From Dehalococcoidia bacterium (lineage in GTDB: Bacteria > Chloroflexota > Dehalococcoidia > SZUA-161 > SpSt-899), in the NCBI GenBank assembly GCA_028711995.1, contig JAQTRE010000017.1, forward strand, positions 1 through 36,049: 36,049 nucleotides of DNA. Direction: 5' to 3'. The notes beneath the pieces are model-generated. The model was not told where the DNA came from and did not search any database. It was given only the letters and a program-made list of their open reading frames with translations. Made by a program: the position numbers and the translations under genes. Of the stretch, positions 5,764-17,550 are shown piece by piece (the stretch's first letter is position 1; every line of letters starts with the position of its first letter).

Positions 5764-7251
5764 AGTCTCCACATGTATCTACGGTTCGGACATTTTGGAG
5801 ATGGGCAGGGTGAAAGTAAATTGGGAGCCCTTGCCTTCTTGGCTCTCTGCCCAAATCTTGCCTCCGTGACGCTCGATGATTCCTTTGCAGATCGATAGTC
5901 CCAATCCGCTTCCTCCCCTCCGGCGCGTCACCCCGGTCTCCAAACGGTAGAACCGGTCAAATACTCTCTCAAGTTCGTTATTGGAAATGCCGATCCCCTG
6001 ATCGGTCACGCTGATCTCAATATTTTCGCCGACGTGCCTTGCTTCCAGGGTGATCGTTGTTCCCTCGTCGGAATAGGAGGCGGCGTTGGAAACCAGGTTT
6101 GTGATCACCTGCCCGATGCGGACCGTGTCGCAATTGATCATGGGGAGGTCCGATGCTGCTTCGATTTCGAACTTGTGCTTCTGAGATGCCGTGGTCAACT
6201 GGCGGTTAATCTGATTCAGAATAGTGGATATCTTGCCGGGCACATTTTCCATTCTCATCGTGCCTGCTTCCAGTTGAGACATATCAATCAGATCACTCAC
6301 GATGTAGGTCAGCCGGTTGGCAGCCTGGTCGATCTCATAGAGGAATTCATGCTGTGTCTGAAGGTCCCAGGTTACATCGGGTTGAACGAGGGTGCTGGCC
6401 AGGCCTTTTATGGAAGTGAGGGGTGTTCTGAGTTCATGGGAAACACTGGCCAGAAGAGCCGTCTTCATCCGGTCGAGTTCTTCCAGTGCCTTGGCCCGGG
6501 CCTCTTCCAGTTCCGCCCGTTTTCGGTCGGTGATGTCCTTGGTGAAGCCAATAATGCGGGTCGGCGTGCCGGAGGCATCTCTGATCACGGCCGCGCTAAT
6601 TGAAGCGGCAAATCGAGTGCCGTCTTTCTTCGCGAGAGTAAACGCTACGTCCTTTGAAATGCCTTCTGCTAAGGTTTTTTGAAAACGGAGAGCCATCTCT
6701 TCCTGGCTTTCAGTTGTGGCCACAAAATCTGCGAAGCTTCTCCCCATCATTTCCTCAGCATTCTGATAACCGAACATACTGATTGCTTGCTGGGATACGT
6801 AAGTGAGAGTTCCCTGCAGATCCATTATGCCTATGGCATCCGGGAATGCTTCCGCTGCAACCCGATATGTTTCCCTCGATTGCCTCAGTTCATTCTCAAT
6901 CTGCTTTTGTGCGCTGATATCCCGTGAGGAACAAATGATCGCTTTCACGTTGCCTTCGGTATCCAATTCCGGCCTCAGAATCGAATCGAAACATCGGCCA
7001 TCGGGAAAGCTGAATTCCAGACGTTTGGCTTTTCCAGTCAGAAACACTTCATCGATTGCGTTTTCACCTAGCTGGCACATTTCCTCCGACAAGCCTAATT
7101 CACGGCTGGTTTTACCGATCCATTCATCTTGAGGAATGCCTGTCCAATTTGCCTGGGCCGCATTCGTGTACAAAAGCCTGTAGTTCCGGTCAACGCGCAC
7201 GATTGTATCAGGCGAATATTCAGCGAGCGCACGGAACTTCTCCTCGCTCTC
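5750..7251 (-). repeat. Duplicated kinase segment, copy 1
   Basis: This 1.5-kb stretch matches 13370-14871 without any gap that I could find: the offset is a constant 7620 bases in every block compared. Identity is very high near the catalytic end (59 of 60 bases at 5881-5940 against 13501-13560) and lower elsewhere. It covers the last two PAS domains, HisKA, HATPase, the stop codon and about 25 bases beyond. Confidence 0.85.
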
Positions 7252-9753
7252 GCGCAGTGCTATCTCCGCACGCTTCTGTTTATCGATGTCTTCGACTATC
7301 TCGATGAATCCAGACACCGTGCCATCCGGCCCGAAGACCGGAACGGCACGGTTCCTGGCGTAGAAACAGCTGCCGTCGTCTCGTATCCCCTGGGTTTCGA
7401 CCTCCGCTGTTCTCCCTGAAGCCATAGCCCGTGCTCCGGGACAATGCGAACAGATGGCTGAGCGCTTCTCGAACTCGTTGAAACAGTACTTGCCCGTAAA
7501 ATCGTCGGCCGGTTTCTGGAACAGGCTGGCAAACGTAGCATTCACGGTGATAATCTTGTATTCCGCGTCCATTACGGCAATACCGAGTAGACTGTTGTCT
7601 GCCAGTGCGCGATAGAGCTCATCGCTTTGACGTAGCGCATTCTCAAGCCGTTTGCGTTCGGTTATGTCACGTGTTACTCCGATGATCCCTGCAGGCTTGC
7701 CGTCGGAACCTCGCAGGAATCTGGCATGAGAATGGGTCCAGATGGTCGAACCGTCCTTGCGGTATTGTTCAGCTTCGAATTGTATAGAGCGTAGCACCTC
7801 TTCAGGTTCGTTCAGCTCAAGTTGCAGCTCGCTCTGGAAAAGGTTTGTCACCATTCCCCGCGATTCAGGTGTAAAGATGTCTTTCAGTGAATGGGCCATT
7901 GATTCTTCGACAGAATATCCGTAGATTCGGGTAACCGAAGGACTGTTGTAGGTAAATCGGAGATTCATGTCCATCGTCCAGATCACATCGGTGGCGTTTT
8001 CGGCCAAGCGACGGTATCGCTCCTCGCTCTCATACAGCGCATCTTGTGCCTTCAATCGGGAAATGCTTTCTCCTATCTGGCTGGCGATCTGCTCCAGCGC
8101 GTTGCGCACAAGGGCGGGGACTTCATTCTTTGAGTGGGAGGCCACGTTGATACAGGCTATTACCCGGTGATTGTGGACAACCGGAAGAATCGCACTGGCC
8201 TGCAGGCCCTCACGTTTTCTGACATCATCCAGAGGAATGCCCAGATTCATGTAGTTGGTATACAGGGGCATGGCGTCCATCACGAGTAGAGTACTCGGAG
8301 AGTTGGGCTCATGGTAGGAGACGCTGGAGATGAAATCGGCTGACAATCCGCAGTGGCATTCCAGCCTCAGTCCTCCAGAACTCTCATCAACCAGGTATAT
8401 CCCTCCTGAATCCATTTCAGAGACTTTGAGAACTGTGTCAAGGCTGAGTCTAAGACCTTCATCAAGCTTGTTGGTAGCAGACAAGGCCTGGGAAAGGCGG
8501 AGTTGCATATCAGCCAGCATCTCCACTCGTTTTTTTTCGGTGATGTCTCTCATCACGCCAAATATCAACCTTGGCGCGCCTGTGGCATCTCTGACTACAT
8601 TGCTTGAATTGGACGTTACCACGGGGTCGCTGCCCATGGGCGTGAAGGCCATCTCGTGATAACTCATCTGTAGGCCCGCAAAGCATTTCTGCAAACTGGC
8701 AGAAGCCTTCTCCACCTCAGCCGGATCGGCCACCACACTCAGCACTTGTAGTGCCTGAAGTCCCACAACATCTTCTCTTTTAGAGAAACCCAACAGTTTC
8801 AAGTAGGCGTCATTGACATCAATCAGCGTTCCTTTAAGATCAACCACGCAGAGGCCGTCGGTCATGCTCCCGAGCAATCCCTCGCTGTAGGATTTGGCTT
8901 CTGCTATTTCATCGATCCTTGATTTGAGGTCCTCTTCGATGGCGCGAAGTTGCTCATTCTGGGCATGGAGAAGATGGTTCTTCTCACGTATCGCCTGTTC
9001 TATCTCTTCATGCTTGGTGATATCTCTAGTGATAACGAGAATGCCTCGTTTGCCGTTTTCAAGCGTGATAGGATCGTGGTCCGCCTCGACGAGAATGCGG
9101 TGGCCATCTTTGTGGATAGCTTCCGAGTAGACCGGCTGATTGAGTTCGCTGGAAAGAATTTTGCCGTAGAGGCCAATCAGCTGTTCTCTCATTTCGGGGA
9201 CAATCGATTGCGTGTCGGCGAAATGCTTTCCCAGCACCTCCGCTTTTCTGTAACCCAAGGTGTTCTCTATCGCATTGCTGACATCAACGATTATGCCCTG
9301 TTCATCGAGACAGTAGATGACATCCCGGGCGTTCTCAAAAATGGCCTTGTATTTTTCCGCATTTGCTTCTAATAGGGTCCCGATTCGATGTCGGTGGAGA
9401 GCCATTCCAATGTTGGTCTGCAGTTCACGGTCTTTGAGGGGTTTGGTGAGGTATGCCAGTGGACTGGTGGCTTTGGCTCCTTCCAGATTGGTCGCGTCCG
9501 AATAGTCCGTCAGGTAGATCAGAGGAATATTCCATCGATTGCTGATGTACGCGGCAGTATCTACTGCATCGATGTTGCCTTGCAGATCGATATCCACGAG
9601 CAGCAGGTCCGGGGTGATTTCTCCGGCATACCGGACGGCATCCTCGCCGGTATGGGCCACCAGGGTGTCATGACCCATGCGTTTGAGCCGATCCTGGAGG
9701 TCTTCCGCGATGGCAGAATCGTCTTCAACCACAAGAATCAGAGCTGACTTCAT
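5779..9753 (-). CDS. Hybrid sensor histidine kinase: receiver, six PAS, GAF, HisKA, HATPase
   Basis: 1324 residues without membrane segments, so a cytoplasmic sensor. Order: receiver 3-120 (phospho-Asp 54 in LLVDIDLQ, Lys in YLTKPL); PAS 131-250; PAS 290-410; GAF about 415-565; PAS 575-705; PAS 710-830, containing a cysteine cluster (Cys757, then ICSHCP near 767-772); PAS 835-950; PAS 960-1080; HisKA with phospho-His 1106 in SVSHELRTP; HATPase with N box (ITNLVSNAASYS), DQGIGI and GGSGLGLS. An N-terminal receiver lets another kinase modulate it. GAGGAATAA precedes the ATG. The final 490 residues and the sequence just past the stop are almost the same as in the kinase at 13399-17313. It precedes a single-domain regulator on the same strand. 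Ligands cannot be predicted from sequence. Confidence 0.93.
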   Translation of the reverse strand: MKSALILVVEDDSAIAEDLQDRLKRMGHDTLVAHTGEDAVRYAGEITPDLLLVDIDLQGNIDAVDTAAYISNRWNIPLIYLTDYSDATNLEGAKATSPLAYLTKPLKDRELQTNIGMALHRHRIGTLLEANAEKYKAIFENARDVIYCLDEQGIIVDVSNAIENTLGYRKAEVLGKHFADTQSIVPEMREQLIGLYGKILSSELNQPVYSEAIHKDGHRILVEADHDPITLENGKRGILVITRDITKHEEIEQAIREKNHLLHAQNEQLRAIEEDLKSRIDEIAEAKSYSEGLLGSMTDGLCVVDLKGTLIDVNDAYLKLLGFSKREDVVGLQALQVLSVVADPAEVEKASASLQKCFAGLQMSYHEMAFTPMGSDPVVTSNSSNVVRDATGAPRLIFGVMRDITEKKRVEMLADMQLRLSQALSATNKLDEGLRLSLDTVLKVSEMDSGGIYLVDESSGGLRLECHCGLSADFISSVSYHEPNSPSTLLVMDAMPLYTNYMNLGIPLDDVRKREGLQASAILPVVHNHRVIACINVASHSKNEVPALVRNALEQIASQIGESISRLKAQDALYESEERYRRLAENATDVIWTMDMNLRFTYNSPSVTRIYGYSVEESMAHSLKDIFTPESRGMVTNLFQSELQLELNEPEEVLRSIQFEAEQYRKDGSTIWTHSHARFLRGSDGKPAGIIGVTRDITERKRLENALRQSDELYRALADNSLLGIAVMDAEYKIITVNATFASLFQKPADDFTGKYCFNEFEKRSAICSHCPGARAMASGRTAEVETQGIRDDGSCFYARNRAVPVFGPDGTVSGFIEIVEDIDKQKRAEIALRESEEKFRALAEYSPDTIVRVDRNYRLLYTNAAQANWTGIPQDEWIGKTSRELGLSEEMCQLGENAIDEVFLTGKAKRLEFSFPDGRCFDSILRPELDTEGNVKAIICSSRDISAQKQIENELRQSRETYRVAAEAFPDAIGIMDLQGTLTYVSQQAISMFGYQNAEEMMGRSFADFVATTESQEEMALRFQKTLAEGISKDVAFTLAKKDGTRFAASISAAVIRDASGTPTRIIGFTKDITDRKRAELEEARAKALEELDRMKTALLASVSHELRTPLTSIKGLASTLVQPDVTWDLQTQHEFLYEIDQAANRLTYIVSDLIDMSQLEAGTMRMENVPGKISTILNQINRQLTTASQKHKFEIEAASDLPMINCDTVRIGQVITNLVSNAASYSDEGTTITLEARHVGENIEISVTDQGIGISNNELERVFDRFYRLETGVTRRRGGSGLGLSICKGIIERHGGKIWAESQEGKGSQFTFTLPISKMSEP

Positions 9754-10041
9754 TTATTCCTCGCGCGCTTTTGAGTCGGACTCCTGAAAGGTGATCCTGA
9801 GTGCTATGCGCCTCTCCACTTCGCCCGGATGTTAGCCTCCGGTTGCCTCATCTGAGAATCCGGATTATCGGAGACTAACTGAGTTTAGTTGACTTACATG
9901 TGGACTGTACAGTTGAAATGCCCGCATCTTTCATGCATGAAATCCAGCAATTTTTCTGGGTGCATACTCATGAATCAGCGGATTACCTCGTTTAGGCTTT
10001 GGTCTGTCAATCCCAAGTCTCGGCAACTCCAACCCCTGAAG
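9754..10041. other. Divergent intergenic region; left part is shared with the second kinase's upstream region
   Basis: No gene seen. Bases 9806-9872 align with 17573-17640, upstream of the second kinase, so the duplicated unit included its leader or promoter. No convincing -35/-10 pair for the kinase was found on the minus strand. The right part leads into the yajQ promoter. Confidence 0.5.
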
Positions 10042-10050
10042 TGGTACAAT
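10042..10050 (+). promoter_or_regulatory. Extended -10 promoter of yajQ
   Basis: TGGTACAAT is an extended -10 whose start site would fall near 10057, giving a 5' leader of about 30 bases with GAGGGAGGG as ribosome site. The same TGGTACAAT appears upstream of the oxidoreductase gene near 30520. Confidence 0.45.
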
Positions 10051-10085
10051 AACCTGGGGAAATCGTCGCCGCGAGGGAGGGAAAG

Positions 10086-10577
10086 ATGCCGTCAGTAGAT
10101 GTAGTCAGTATGGTAGACATGCAGGCAATGGACAATGCGGTCAATAATTTAAAGCGGGAGATATCCACGCGGTTTGATTTCAGAAGCATCAAAACTGAGA
10201 TCACTCTCGACCGAAAAGAGAAGACCATTCATGTTCTTACCGGAGATGAAGGGAAAGTCCAGTCGGTCACCGACATGCTGCTGGATCAATGCATCCGGTT
10301 CAAAGTGGACCTCAAGTGCCTGGACATCAAAGAGATCGAGCCCAGCTCACAGGGGGCAGCCAAAAGGAATATCCAGATCAAGGAGGGCATTCCCAAATTG
10401 ACCTGCCAGAAGATTGTCAAACTCATCAAGGGGACGAAGATCAAGGTCCAGCCGGCTATTCAAGACGACCGTGTCAGGTTCACCGGCAAGAAAATTGACG
10501 ATCTCCAGGAGATCATGCAGCTTCTCCGGGAGCAGGATTACGATATTCCTCTGCAGTTCATCAATATGAAGAGCTGA
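10086..10577 (+). CDS. yajQ: YajQ family cyclic-di-GMP-binding/nucleotide-binding protein
   Basis: 163 residues, full length for the family, with its hallmark start: PSVDVVSMVDMQAMDNAVNN followed by REISTRFDF. The C-terminal half keeps KLTCQKIVKLIKGTKIKVQ and VRFTGKKIDDLQEIMQLLRE, ending in the usual PLQFINM. YajQ proteins have two ferredoxin-like domains; they bind tRNA or nucleotides in vitro, and some bind cyclic di-GMP and modulate transcription factors. Cytoplasmic. It is the only gene of its unit apart from the micro-ORF unit that follows, which has its own promoter and supplies the next terminator. Confidence 0.93.
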   Translation: MPSVDVVSMVDMQAMDNAVNNLKREISTRFDFRSIKTEITLDRKEKTIHVLTGDEGKVQSVTDMLLDQCIRFKVDLKCLDIKEIEPSSQGAAKRNIQIKEGIPKLTCQKIVKLIKGTKIKVQPAIQDDRVRFTGKKIDDLQEIMQLLREQDYDIPLQFINMKS

Positions 10578-10596
10578 CACGCGAACATGCTGTAGA

Positions 10597-10625
10597 TTGA
10601 CCGTTGCGCCTGAAAATGGTATAAT
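10597..10625 (+). promoter_or_regulatory. Near-consensus sigma-70 promoter of a short transcription unit
   Basis: TTGACC, exactly 17 bases, TATAAT. It is among the best promoters in the window and lies just after the yajQ stop. Transcription would start near 10632 and run to the intrinsic terminator at 10849-10877, giving an RNA of roughly 245 bases. Confidence 0.75.
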
Positions 10626-10671
10626 GCGGGCAAGAAAAGTGGGGTTGGCGCCGACAACGAGGAGGTGTGAG

Positions 10672-10758
10672 ATGAAGCTTTTCAAGTGGTATGGCGGGTG
10701 GAAGTATCCGGAAGTGGCCCTGTCTGACAGGCAGGGGGTGGAAGTTGGGTCGGCCTGA
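10672..10758 (+). CDS. Candidate 28-residue microprotein in its own transcription unit
   Basis: An ATG with a strong ribosome site (GAGGAGGTG, about five bases upstream) opens a 28-codon frame rich in aromatics at its start (MKLFKWYGGWKYPEVAL) and ending GVEVGSA. The unit has its own near-consensus promoter and terminator and contains no other gene. I know of no family for it. The stop codon lies at the base of a strong hairpin: GGGTCGGCC pairs with GGCCGAGCCC across a 17-base loop (one bulged G). So the transcript may instead be a structured small RNA whose ribosome-site-like sequence is incidental, or a dual-function RNA. Confidence 0.4.
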   Translation: MKLFKWYGGWKYPEVALSDRQGVEVGSA

Positions 10759-10848
10759 GAGTTTCATCTAACGGCCGAGCCCGTCCCTCGGAAGGCCAGC
10801 CGAATCCGGAAGCAAATCCCGGAGGCAGGCCCCCCAGCAAGGCTTATT

Positions 10849-10877
10849 AGAGGGTTCCTGAAAAGGAACCCTCTTTT
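10849..10877 (+). terminator. Strong intrinsic terminator
   Basis: AGAGGGTTCC and GGAACCCTCT pair perfectly (10 bp) around TGAAAA, with TTT following (the arm itself ends in CTCT, giving a TCTTTT tail). It ends the micro-ORF unit and probably yajQ read-through, facing the convergent corA gene. Confidence 0.85.
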
Positions 10878-10967
10878 CATATCCCACACAAGGTCAATGT
10901 CCTCCTCATTAGTTGGTCTATCTGCCACAGACTGCAAGCGATTGTTTGGCTCATCTCCGGGCTGGAG

Positions 10968-12065
10968 TCAGTTGCCCAACAAGTCCTTCTGCCATCGCTT
11001 GATGTGATCCATGGCGGGAGCATAACCGATGATCTTATGTGGATCAACCTTGAAAGGCTTTACATTGGTGACCTGCCAGCGTCGGCGGCCGAGCCACGTC
11101 CGCGCCCAGAAAAACCAAAGGGCCACCATCCCGGCCAACCCCATAAATCCAATGACGGCAAAATAGGCCCAATCTACACCTAATTCCGGCATATGCTCAA
11201 AGTTCATCCCATATATTCCGGCCAGAAGTGTGAGAGGCATGAAAATAGTGGCCACAATAGAGAGTACCCTCATCGTTTCATTCTGCCGATTTGCCACCGA
11301 AGATAAGTAGGTTGAGAGAGCATTATCAGCCCTGTCTCTTAGGATCTGGTTCCACTCTTCGATGCGCACCATGTGGTCGTATATATCCCGATAGAATATC
11401 TGGGCTTCCGGTGCGATAATGCGGAATTCGCCCCTGCTCAGTCGGCCAATGGTCTCTCGCTGGAGAGCCATAACCCGATGCAAGCGCTGTGTTGACCGCT
11501 TGAGTTGCATGATGGCCTCCAGAATCGAGGGCTGAGGGTTTTGAATCACAGATTCCTCGATCTCCTCTGCCCTGTCACTCATGCGGTCGATGGTGGGCAA
11601 GACATTATCCACCAGTGTATCAATGAGCGCATGAACGAGAAAATCCGCCCCTTTTCTCATGGGACGATCATCAGCTTCTTCCACCAAATGCTTGATGGAT
11701 TCCACGCTGTAGAGAGGGGCGCTGTGATTGCTCACCACAAAGTGACGGCCGAGGAAAATTTCCAGTTCCGCTGTCTCCACAATGTCTGATTCGGCTGCAT
11801 GATTTATGCCATGGACGATGACAAAGAGGTAATCCCCAAAGTCGTCGACCTTGGGAGGGAATATCCGAGGGTCAACACAATTTTCGATCGCCAGATGGTG
11901 GAAATCGAATGTGCGTTTCAGGAATTCCCCGTCCTCAGGTGTGGTGGCGCTGATATCCACCCAGAGCAGGCCCTGTTTGGACTCAAAAATAGACTTGACA
12001 TCCGTCTCACTCAGATGATACTTCAAATCATTTTCAGGGCTCAGATAATATGCTTCAAACGGCAT
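10968..12065 (-). CDS. corA: CorA family Mg2+/Co2+ transporter
   Basis: 365 residues: a large N-terminal cytoplasmic domain, a long helical stalk (about 155-260), and two membrane helices (about 266-285 and 300-320) separated by the family signature YGMNFEHMPELG, with GMN at 286-288. CorA is a pentameric Mg2+ channel. The protein continues about 40 residues past the second helix (RTWLGRRRWQ onward to WQKDLLGN), where most CorA proteins end within a few basic residues, so it carries an extra cytoplasmic tail. GGAGGTG precedes the ATG. It is a single gene, convergent with the yajQ/micro-ORF region. Mg2+, Co2+ or Zn2+ specificity cannot be decided. Confidence 0.93.
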   Translation of the reverse strand: MPFEAYYLSPENDLKYHLSETDVKSIFESKQGLLWVDISATTPEDGEFLKRTFDFHHLAIENCVDPRIFPPKVDDFGDYLFVIVHGINHAAESDIVETAELEIFLGRHFVVSNHSAPLYSVESIKHLVEEADDRPMRKGADFLVHALIDTLVDNVLPTIDRMSDRAEEIEESVIQNPQPSILEAIMQLKRSTQRLHRVMALQRETIGRLSRGEFRIIAPEAQIFYRDIYDHMVRIEEWNQILRDRADNALSTYLSSVANRQNETMRVLSIVATIFMPLTLLAGIYGMNFEHMPELGVDWAYFAVIGFMGLAGMVALWFFWARTWLGRRRWQVTNVKPFKVDPHKIIGYAPAMDHIKRWQKDLLGN

Positions 12066-13369: not shown

Positions 13370-14871
13370 GCCTGGAATTCAGAAGTCTCTGCATGTAGCT
13401 ATGTTTTGGTCATTTTGGATACGGGCAGGGTAAAGTTGAATCGGGAGCCTTTTCCTTCCTGGCTCTGAACCCAAATGTTACCGCCGTGACTCTCGATGAT
13501 TCCTTTGCTGATCGATAGTCCCAATCCGCTTCCTCCCCTCCGGCGCGTCACCCCGGTCTCCAAACGGTAGAATCGGTCAAACACCCTTCCCAGTTCGTTT
13601 TCGGCAATGCCGATCCCCTGATCGGTCACGCTGACCTCAATATTTTCGCCGATGTGCTTTGCTTCCAGGGTGATCGTTGTTCCCTCCTCGGAATAGGAGG
13701 CGGCATTGGAAATCAGGTTTGTGATCACCTGCCCGATGCGGATCTCGTCGCAATTGATGAGGGGAAGGTCCGATGCTGCTTTGATTTCAAGGGTGTGTTT
13801 TCGGGCTGCCGTGATCAACTGGTGGTGAATCTGATTCAGAATAGTGGGTATCTTGCTGGGCACGTTTTCCATTCTCATCGTGCCTGCTTCCAGTTGAGAC
13901 ATATCGATCAGATCACCCACGATGTAAGTCAGCCCATTGGCAGCCTGCTCGATGTCGTGGAGGAATTCCTGCTGTGTCTGAAGGTCCCAGGTTACATCGG
14001 GTTGAAGGAGGGTGCTGGCCAATCCTTTGATGGAAGTAAGGGGTGTTCTGAGTTCATGGGAAACACTGGCCAGGAGAGCTGTCTTCATCAAGTCGAGTCC
14101 TTCAAGCGCCCTGGCCCGGGCCGTTTCCTGTTCCGCCCGTTTTCGGTCGGTGATGTCCCTGGTGCACCCAATAATGCTGGTCGGCATGCCGGAATCGTCT
14201 CTGATCACGGAGGCGCTGATTGAAGCGGCGAATGGAGTCCCGTCTTTTCTCCAGAGAGTGTATTCTACATCCCTTGATATGCCTTCTCTCAGAGTTTTCT
14301 GGAAATCGAGGGCTATCTTTTCATGACCTTCGGCTGAAGCAAATAAGTCTAAGAAATTCTTTCCCAGCATTTCCTCAGCATCCTCATAACCGAATTCCTT
14401 GGCCGCCTGCTGGGATAGGTAAGTGATAATTCCCTGTAGATTTATTATCCCAATGGCATCCGGGAACGCTTCCGTTGCCGCCCGATACATTTCTCTCGAT
14501 TGCCTCAGTTCATTCTCAACCTGTTTTTGTGCGGAGATATCTCGCGTGGAACAAATGACCGCTTTCACTTTGCCTTCGGCATCCAATTCCGGGCTCAGAA
14601 TCGAATCAAAGTATCGACCATTGGGAAGGCATATTTCCAGTCGTTTAACTTTTCCGGTCCGGAATACTTCATCGATCGCGTTTTCTGATAGTGTGCACAT
14701 ATCTTTCGCAATGCCCAATTCACGGCTGGTTTTTCCGATCCACGCATCTTGCGAAATACCTGTTATTTTTGCCTGGGCAGTATTGACGTACAGGTGCCTG
14801 CAACCCCGGTCAACGCGCACGATTGAGCCAGGCGAATATTCAGTGAGGGCGCGGAACTTCTCCTCGCTCTC
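13370..14871 (-). repeat. Duplicated kinase segment, copy 2
   Basis: Partner of 5750-7251 at a constant offset of 7620 bases. Both copies lie on the minus strand and keep reading frames, so both are under selection or the duplication is recent. The uneven identity suggests gene conversion. Confidence 0.85.
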
Positions 14872-17313
14872 CTTCAGCGTCTTCTCAGCCTGCTTGCGCC
14901 TAGTGATATCTGTGAAGGTAGTAAATACCTGATAGGGCTTGTCTTCGCCCGGTTTGAACTGCGGAACGGCGCTGATGGATATCCAGTGGTATTGCGCATC
15001 AGACGGATTGAAAACACCCATGACGATGTCATTGACTGGTTTACCGGTTTCCAGTGAAGCGCTTGCCGGGTGAGCCTCTCTGGGGAAATCGGTGCCATCT
15101 TCTTTGAGGGTTTTCGCACCGGGATCAATCGAAGTGAGACCGTTCATTTGGGCCAGGGTCAATCCAAGGATTCTTTCCGCGGCTGGATTGGCGGATGTGA
15201 TCTCTCTGGCGGCATTTTGATAGACAACTCCCTGAGCCATGGTATCGAACAGAGTGCGATGCTTTTCTTCACTCTGCCGGAGCGCTTGTTCCGTCAGCTT
15301 GCGCTCGGTGATATCCATGACGATGAACGTTAATCCCAGCGATGGATCGCCCGGATCGAGAGGCGCACAATTCAGAGCCACGTCGATCTGTTCACCCGAT
15401 TTGAGTTGCCAACCCGTCTCGATAGCGCTTAACCCTTTTGCTGTAATTTGGCGGAGAATTTCGTGTTTTGTAGATTCATAAGCCGTTTGCGTGGGGAAAA
15501 AGAATCCGCAACTCTTCCCGATCAATTCCCTCCTTGAATAGCCAGTAATCTCACATAAAAGGGGGTTCAATTCTGTGATGGTATCGTTCATCATCACCCC
15601 GATCCCGGCAGGCGCAGTATTGATGATGCTTTCGATTCTGCTCTCGCTCAGCCGTAGCTCCTCCATCGCCTGCTTGATTTCGGTAATATCCTCACCGGAA
15701 CTGAGGGTGCCAACAATATTGTCTGCTTCATCCCGGAGAATGGTATTGTCCCAGGCAATCATTCTCTCCTGGCCGGTTTTGGTCAGGACAGGATTTTCCA
15801 CATACTTGCCTGATACCATATCCCCAGATAGCATCTTTTGGAAGTAGTTTCGTTTGATTGCGTTTTTCATCCGTTCAGGCAGGAAATGATCGAACCAGTC
15901 CCTGCCTGTGACTTCAGCTTCTTCGTACCCCAGTATTTCGCATCCCTTTTTGTTGATGAGGGTGACTTTACCATCAGCGTTGATGGCTACGATGATTACT
16001 CCCGCAATATTCAGATATTGTTGTGCTGTGTCGCGCTCCTTCTTGAACATCTCCTCGGCCCGCTTGCGTTCGGTGATGTCTGCTATCGTTCCTGCAAAAC
16101 GAACAGGTTTACCGAAATCATCACTAATAATCTTCCCTTTGGCATTGCAGTGTTTCAGCAGTCCATCGCCCGAAACCAGCCGGGTATCGAGATCTAATGG
16201 TTCACCCGTTTCAAAAGAATGCTGGAATGATTGGCCGTATCTGGCGAAATCATCGGGATGAATGAACTTGCCGTTGGCTTCGAAGCTCGGAACGTAATCC
16301 TGCTGGCTTACGCCAAAAATCTGATAGGTCTCATCGGACCACCAGACGCGATTGGTCTCTAAATCCCACTCCCAGCTTCCAACAGCGGCAACTTGTTGGG
16401 CTTCATTCAACCTTTCCAGTAGTGCCGATTTCTGGCGCGCTGTTTCTTTCAGAGCCTCCTCTGCTTTCTTGCGCTCGGTGATATCTCTTTGAATAGCGAT
16501 CGCATGGATGGTTTCTCCCTGATCGTCAAGAACGGGGGCAATGGTGATGTCAATGATTCTGTGTGCAGTTTTTTCCAGTTTGACCTGTTCTTCTTTTCCT
16601 GTGTCATAGTTGATCTCAAACCGAGCGATTTTTCCGCTGCGAAAAACGTCCTCAACCAGCGGCAAAAAGCCTTGTTCTTTCACCTGTATGTCTTGCAGGA
16701 CATTATATTTACCAACGATCTCCTCATCCGTGATCTTCAGGAAATCGCGCAGTGCTTGATTTAATCTGATGACCGTTCCCTTTTCGTCAGAGACCCACAT
16801 CGGATCAGGGGTATTGTCGATGACGCTTTCCAAAAAACTGTGGGAATCTCTGAGGTCTGCACTCAACCTCTCGCGTTCGGTTATATCCCGCACAAACTCC
16901 AGATAGACGGGCTTGTGGCTAAAGGAGATAGTTTCGGCGTTGATCTCCACGGGCACCTTTCGGCCATCTTTGTGCAGAAAAATGGTCTCATACCGGGAAG
17001 GGACGTCCTCGCCAGACATTCTTCTTTGGTAGCGGTCCATCACTGTGCCGAGAGCATCCGGGTGGATATACCGGGTTATGAGGGTACCTTGGATCTCTTG
17101 GGCGGTATACCCGAGGATCTTGAGCGAAGCAGGATTGGCATATTGGATGATTTCATCCTGAACGATGCAGATGCCGTCATCAGCCAGTTCCACCAGGTTG
17201 CGGTAGAGGGAATCGTTCTCTTGGGGCGCTTGCACCTTTGCTTGCTTGTGTTCAACTCCTGCAGAGAGGCGTTGCTCCGGACGTTTGTTGGTGCGGGTAA
17301 AGGGCGGTTTCAT
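13399..17313 (-). CDS. Sensor histidine kinase with eight PAS domains
   Basis: About 1304 residues, no membrane segment and no receiver. PAS domains lie at about 35-150, 155-283, 300-418, 425-548, 552-673, 678-808, 813-930 and 935-1058; most end in the linker DITERK or a variant. HisKA has phospho-His 1086 in SVSHELRTP; HATPase has [23 protein letters not shown] and GGSGLGLS. I start it at the ATG at 17313, which has a perfect AGGAGGTG eight bases upstream; the frame is open 16 codons further. From about residue 816 to the end it matches the kinase at 5779-9753 without gaps, while the N-terminal PAS domains differ. Upstream lies a frameshifted remnant of a receiver-PAS region, so the present N terminus is probably newly arranged. 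No regulator gene is adjacent. Confidence 0.92.
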
Positions 17314-17357
17314 TCTTTCCCACCTCCTCTGGCTCAGCCCATGGGCCGAGTGCTTCA

Positions 17358-17550
17358 TCAAACCTCTTCCCCACGATTTCTGCTCTTTCCGGACGTGTCC
17401 TTCCCCAAAAGGGCCTTATTGACGTCAATGATCTTTCTTTCCGGATCAAGCACGCAGAGGTGATCGATCTTGCTCTTGATCAATTCCTCCCGGTGGGATT
17501 CGGCTTCCGCTATCGATTCGGTCTTTGAGTGGTTTGGTGGGGTATGTTAT
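17358..17550 (-). pseudogene. Remnant of a receiver-PAS kinase N terminus
   Basis: Read on the minus strand, 17548 down to about 17517 encodes TKPLKDRI in a setting matching the end of the receiver of the first kinase (YLTKPLKDRE). After a frame change near 17508 another frame encodes IAEAESHREELIKSKIDHLC, then [17 protein letters not shown], stopping at 17358. That matches the linker and second PAS of the first kinase (IDEIAEAKSY, LCVVDLKGTLIDVNDAYLKLLG). Against the intact gene, the first PAS is missing and five bases (GAAAT) are lost at RIDEIAEA. This is a decayed piece of the second kinase's former N terminus. Confidence 0.75.

Follow-up and report, generated by a model that had tools for sequence, protein, structure and literature searches.

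A predicted RNA and micro-ORF gene family of Dehalococcoidia and other Chloroflexota, with a diverged copy between yajQ and corA

Comparative analysis of a short interval between yajQ and corA in a Dehalococcoidia genome indicates a well-supported family that combines a predicted structured RNA with a conserved micro-ORF. The predicted family is class-wide in Dehalococcoidia and present in other Chloroflexota classes, and this small RNA gene family of many Chloroflexota is apparently undescribed. It adds an RNA-plus-micropeptide family in a phylum of largely uncultured bacteria, and selection shows on its one short predicted transcript in two independent ways, in the paired bases and in the codons. 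A preliminary description of the window (the whole stretch of DNA analysed, 36,049 nt) had matched the unit to no known RNA or peptide family; rather than being an isolated oddity, it belongs to a multicopy family through a phylum, with copies in its own genome and in other Chloroflexota, and the interpretation given there is partly supported. The reading we favour, with about even confidence, is that the unit is a stand-alone dual-function regulatory RNA whose nascent peptide would act as ribosomes reach a stop codon beside a conserved hairpin, P1.

The flanking genes named in the preliminary description were confirmed by Pfam, and the near-consensus promoter, the strong ribosome site and the 28-codon frame were all found as it had placed them (Table 1). 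Its figure of about 245 transcribed bases between the unit's own promoter and terminator agrees with a predicted transcript of 246 nt; the terminator was likewise present, although the scanner counted one pair more than the 10 bp described. The folding stability of this transcript was above that of dinucleotide shuffles (z = -2.8). The promoter was the sole promoter-like site in positions 10000-11500, where 1.2 were expected from shuffles, and no antisense promoter was found in the same region. Because about one promoter of such quality is expected by chance per 1.5 kb, the evidence of this single sequence is not decisive alone. The signal layout of the unit is judged to be beyond chance because identically arranged relatives occur in other genomes. 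Two very large predicted histidine kinases flank the yajQ/corA region.

Table 1. Predicted features of the unit and its surroundings, in window coordinates
Feature	Position	Strand	Basis or remark
Histidine kinase, very large	5779-9753	-	~1320 residues, many PAS domains
yajQ, upstream flank	10086-10577	+	Pfam PF04461
Promoter, sigma-70-type, TTGACC-17-TATAAT, TG before -10	10597-10625	+	11/12 consensus positions
GGCGCC palindrome, 5' UTR	10647-10652	+	By eye; common to some paralogues and relatives (C61, C49, G017)
Ribosome site GAGGAGGTG, strong	10659-10667	+	Sequence reading
Micro-ORF, 28 codons, MKLFKWYGGWKYPEVALSDRQGVEVGSA + TGA	10672-10758	+	ATG at 10672, TGA at 10756-10758
Hairpin P1	10718-10736; arms 10718-10725 / 10729-10736	+	Family structure, model match
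Stem P2, long-range, family-like, 12 pairs, encloses P3/P4	arms 10744-10757 / 10826-10838	+	By analogy with covarying family P2
Stem GGGTCGGCC / GGCCGAGCCC of the preliminary description	10747-10755 / 10773-10782	+	Minimum-energy fold
Hairpin P4 (TCCGG .. CCGGA)	10805-10823	+	Family structure
Intrinsic terminator	10849-10877; stem-loop 10849-10874, T run to 10877	+	11 pairs, 4-nt loop (scanner)
corA, downstream flank, convergent	10968-12065	-	Pfam PF01544
Histidine kinase, very large	13399-17361	-	~1320 residues, many PAS domains

The stem GGGTCGGCC/GGCCGAGCCC, which had been described as straddling the stop codon, does occur in the minimum-energy fold. It uses the same 5' arm as P2 and the two are mutually exclusive. 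Either can form in the window sequence, and the fold with this hairpin came to -103.0 kcal/mol vs -98.6 kcal/mol for the fold with P2, a difference of about 4.4 kcal/mol. The family alignment gave no support for it. The stem is accordingly best described as a predicted local alternative, the conserved elements of the family being P1 and P2.

When the window sequence served as a DNA query against relatives, nothing was returned from outside its own genome because the window copy is diverged. The same search of its own genome found one partial copy (contig C23; 74% over the last 81 nt), in which a P4-like sequence also precedes the terminator. Searching 400 genomes with the single peptide gave noise, except for weak start-aligned matches on three other contigs of the same genome. 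These proved real, all three sharing a layout of ribosome site, M-x-x-Q-K-W-Y-G-V-W, hairpin GCCCTG..CAGGGC, structured stretch and terminator. Additional own-genome copies were located on contigs C61, C49, C12 and C84, and relatives were then found in the same family, order and class. A peptide-alignment search of genome contigs confirmed no candidate, and one candidate locus (L075) was unrelated. Three similar own-genome copies (L063, L064 and L065, on contigs C171, C188 and C37), with 83-89% DNA identity, form a sub-branch in which the 3' domain is longer and a frame of 30 codons runs on through P1 (ALLMRQG); one of the three is without a ribosome site.

The extent of the family was estimated with two models. 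Model R1, a covariance model that covers the ribosome site, the frame and P1, had matches at E <= 0.01 in 92 of the 393 class genomes, as a rule one copy in each, the weakest of these matches possibly being due to chance. Model R2, limited to GVWQVD-x-stop and P1, matched 51 of 202 Dehalococcoidia genomes at E <= 1e-5; among 80 genomes from other classes of Chloroflexota it gave clear matches (E < 1e-9) in 13, some of these 13 sitting in the R2 seed and all having first been found with R1 or R2. Three compact complete genomes of the class each have 21-28 reductive dehalogenase family matches, as do Dehalococcoides and Dehalogenimonas, which is why the class is taken as Dehalococcoidia; in these three genomes the unit was not among the matches listed. 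A strict scan for the peptide pattern outside Chloroflexota matched in Phycisphaerae, and viral matches to the pattern were also obtained (L210, L211); the layout was absent from all of these, which were judged to be chance.

The window unit itself was placed with a covariance model of the same elements (ribosome site, frame and P1) that contained no own-genome sequences. This model scored it at 30.8 bits (E = 8.7e-8) as the sole significant match in the 36 kb, the next having E = 2, and also recovered the other own-genome copies. Codons 1-10 match the conserved frame M-x-L-x-K-W-Y-G-x-W, and the copy retains promoter, ribosome site, frame start, P1, a possible P2, P4 and terminator. The canonical stop after codon 14 is absent. 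The 28-codon frame exists because, with no stop at codon 15, reading continues through P1 to codon 28, and GGWKYPEV stands in place of GVWQVD; the copy was not among the own-genome matches of R2 at E <= 1e-5. By this comparison the window unit is a diverged paralogue that has lost the canonical stop and motif, not a canonical member. Its 28-residue peptide is most likely derived, given the replaced motif and missing stop, and since both are lost, any function left to this copy is probably that of the RNA alone. A selenocysteine reading of the window TGA, prompted by the frame staying open beyond it, was rejected because the canonical stop in relatives is TGA, TAA or TAG, all three types occurring across the family.

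A typical member consists of a promoter, a strong ribosome site, a mostly 14-codon frame, the GC hairpin P1, stem P2 enclosing two hairpins, and an intrinsic terminator some 200-230 nt downstream of the start codon, in that order. Single-member folds together with the alignment gave the plan, with P1 directly 3' of the frame and P2 around P3 and P4 ahead of the terminator. Over 30 members, the 23 pairs in P1, P2 and P4 were paired in 92.7% of cells, P3 being left out of this count as variable in length, vs at most 48% for slid control pairings. Double-change cells numbered 73, vs 21.6 +- 4.1 in shuffles, and none of 500 shuffles reached the observed count. A set of 43 members from several classes again confirmed P1, and on folding, four members from other classes showed the same P1/P2/P3/P4/terminator plan. 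The 3' domain gives independent support because it was not part of the search model. A switch in which the terminator would pair with the ribosome site or with P1 was rejected on a swapped-pairing test, as native pairings of either element with the terminator arms were no better than swapped ones.

The typical frame ends in GVWQVD-x-stop, as in the canonical member G138:C32 (MKLHKVYGVWQVDK-stop), and canonical members contain no tandem Trp codons. Across 72 micro-ORFs, diversity over codons 8-13 was 0.148, 0.131 and 0.503 at codon positions 1, 2 and 3, respectively, which indicates that the predicted peptide is under codon-level purifying selection. Counted from the stop, conservation was 3.96 bits at G-7, 3.90 at V-6, 3.42 at W-5, 3.78 at Q-4, 3.50 at V-3 and 3.20 at D-2, and the stop-to-P1 gap was 0-1 nt in 58 of 63 members, the conservation in both counts being somewhat inflated as the six motif residues also selected the peptides. 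Positions 2-8 anchored to the start reached at most 1.9 bits, with an N-terminus variable in sequence and a frame variable in length, the starts having been assigned automatically and a few being clearly too short. The conservation of the predicted peptide is therefore described as anchored to the stop, not the start; conserved nascent-chain residues at a fixed distance from the stop are a family trait that the window copy does not share. The frame extends past the canonical stop in 24 of 89 members; a stop at this position can thus be dispensed with at times, which counts against the favoured reading. Members from three separate genomes, L184 (G593), L196 (G307) and L098 (G000:C49), keep P1 but have another C-terminal motif, GVW[LI]FPS-stop, instead of GVWQVD-x-stop.

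Conservation in relatives, which the preliminary description had proposed as a check, was found for both the peptide and the paired bases. That description had left open a microprotein, a small RNA or a dual-function RNA; a self-contained transcription unit of no known family stands and dual function is plausible, while the conserved frame is usually 14 codons rather than 28. The codon signal is also what makes it unlikely that the unit is a structured RNA without a coding function, in which the frame would serve only as a timer or protector coupled to translation and the amino acids would be incidental. A structure common to several classes, and the loss of motif or stop in some members, the window copy included, would suit such an RNA, but in codons 8-13 the third position is 3-4 times as diverse as either of the first two.

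Signals of an independent transcription unit were recovered across the family. A promoter of 9/12 or better was present in 31 of 75 upstream regions, where 8.0 were expected, and in most of them 39-58 nt separated the end of the -10 from the start codon. Terminators were found on the sense strand in 54 of 76 members, vs 26 on the reverse strand as control, and ended 186-231 nt after the start codon in 49 of the 54. With its own predicted promoter and terminator, the unit has a trait of dual-function small RNAs.

There is no conserved downstream gene, the genes 3' of the unit being unrelated across the class and often convergent. In six genomes of one family (L147, L149, L152, L154, L157 and L161) the unit lies about 100 nt downstream of a proS-like gene, and two of the six have a nusA-like gene next after the unit, both names being taken from translated sequence, not by profile. 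This retained position, a mostly single copy per genome, the covariation and the finding of no phage or plasmid relatives of the unit all speak against a selfish or mobile repeat or a chance assembly of signals, which we consider extremely unlikely even with eight model matches in the window's own genome, several of them near contig ends.

Short versions consisting of frame and P1, with no terminator detected, are also carried by four genomes of two families (G657, G706, G477 and G456), several per genome and four on one G657 contig. As a rule these (L170, L171, L173, L178 and L180) stand just upstream of a gene whose product is secreted or lipoprotein-like, about 130 nt away at most and 37-65 nt from the secreted-protein gene in five cases; in seven proteins near short versions only DUF6345 and a matrixin-like domain were recognised. 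The short module seems to be reused as a putative 5' leader, and its place before secreted-protein genes favours action in cis in those few genomes. Together with a lipoprotein-like gene common to G657 and G477, 221-260 nt downstream of a terminator-bearing copy, the short versions speak for a classical cis-acting leader whose terminator would be an attenuator of the next gene. As an account of the unit this is improbable: corA next to the window unit is convergent, downstream genes across the class show no relation, and the swapped-pairing tests link neither ribosome site nor P1 to the terminator arms.

Known RNA families were compared using Rfam 15. Within the window nothing scored at or above a gathering threshold, nor were weaker matches of any meaning seen there, in agreement with the earlier statement that no known family fits. 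At nine relatives' loci only 5S rRNA and tRNA were found, both outside the unit. A permissive scan of seven loci gave sraL at 29.8 bits (threshold 39) in one member only, which was read as chance. ARAGORN found 0 tmRNA genes in the window, and on inspection for type I toxin-antitoxin features the peptides were short and had no long hydrophobic stretch. A literature search confined to open-access texts turned up no mention of GVWQVD and no report of an RNA of this kind in Chloroflexota.

Under the preferred reading of a stand-alone dual-function RNA, ribosomes would load on the unusually strong ribosome site, and the short nascent chain ending in GVWQVD would slow or arrest termination at the stop codon. 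A ribosome at the stop would cover the 5' arm of P1, so that translation state, possibly set by a ligand or stress, would decide whether P1 forms and thereby how active the RNA is or what becomes of it. The output would act in trans, as no downstream gene is conserved. The stop-adjacent conservation, the fixed stop-P1 distance and the strong ribosome site suggest that termination on the frame may be the regulated step and that ribosome position may control P1; we infer both the arrest and the action in trans purely from this geometry of conservation. If the nascent peptide does control the RNA, leader-peptide regulation would extend from gene-front switches to free-standing RNAs. The stronger proposal of a class of self-sensing, trans-acting, stand-alone RNAs through the phylum, each switched when a ribosome stalls against P1 at GVWQVD-x-stop, is doubtful.

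TnaC is a stop-codon arrest leader peptide, and the Chloroflexota family resembles it in having conserved residues near the stop, including Trp, and a stop-adjacent RNA structure that a stalled ribosome could cover. It differs in having other residues and no regulated downstream operon, and its arrest is hypothetical. SgrS/SgrT, SR1/SR1P and RNAIII/hld are dual-function small RNAs that likewise have an independent promoter and terminator, a structured RNA and an embedded small frame; no sequence relation to them was seen (no Rfam match), and the Chloroflexota motif is stop-anchored beside P1. Orphan structured RNAs from comparative genomics (e.g. PMC2864571) are similarly defined by covariation across genomes and metagenomes, whereas the present family carries a conserved micro-ORF and is matched by no Rfam 15 model.

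The nearest precedent is peTrpL (PMC7298713). In Sinorhizobium meliloti, rnTrpL is a trp attenuator RNA with a 14-residue leader peptide, peTrpL, both reported to act in trans; attenuation upstream of trpE(G) gives rise to the RNA, whose first bases are the ATG (PMC7298713). Shared features are a short transcript, predicted here, that ends at an intrinsic terminator, and a 14-codon frame. The Chloroflexota unit has neither a downstream trp gene nor a Trp codon run, and it is also set apart by its strong ribosome site and by a 3' domain of several conserved helices.

The same precedent of a trans-acting 14-residue leader peptide (PMC7298713) lends weight to a microprotein messenger, in which a 14-22 residue peptide would be the trans-acting product, for example by binding a protein via its C-terminus, and the RNA structure would merely tune stability or translation. 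The strong ribosome site, codon-level purifying selection and conserved C-terminal motif all fit this possible, if tentative, alternative, and we regard the peptide as effector as nearly as plausible as the best reading. Against it, the 3' domain covaries extensively and exceeds the frame in length, and a fixed P1-stop distance of 0-1 nt would be needless for a plain mRNA. A CCTCC that precedes the start codon in some members from other classes (L212, L219) lies in the 5' UTR and could base-pair with their GGAGG ribosome site.
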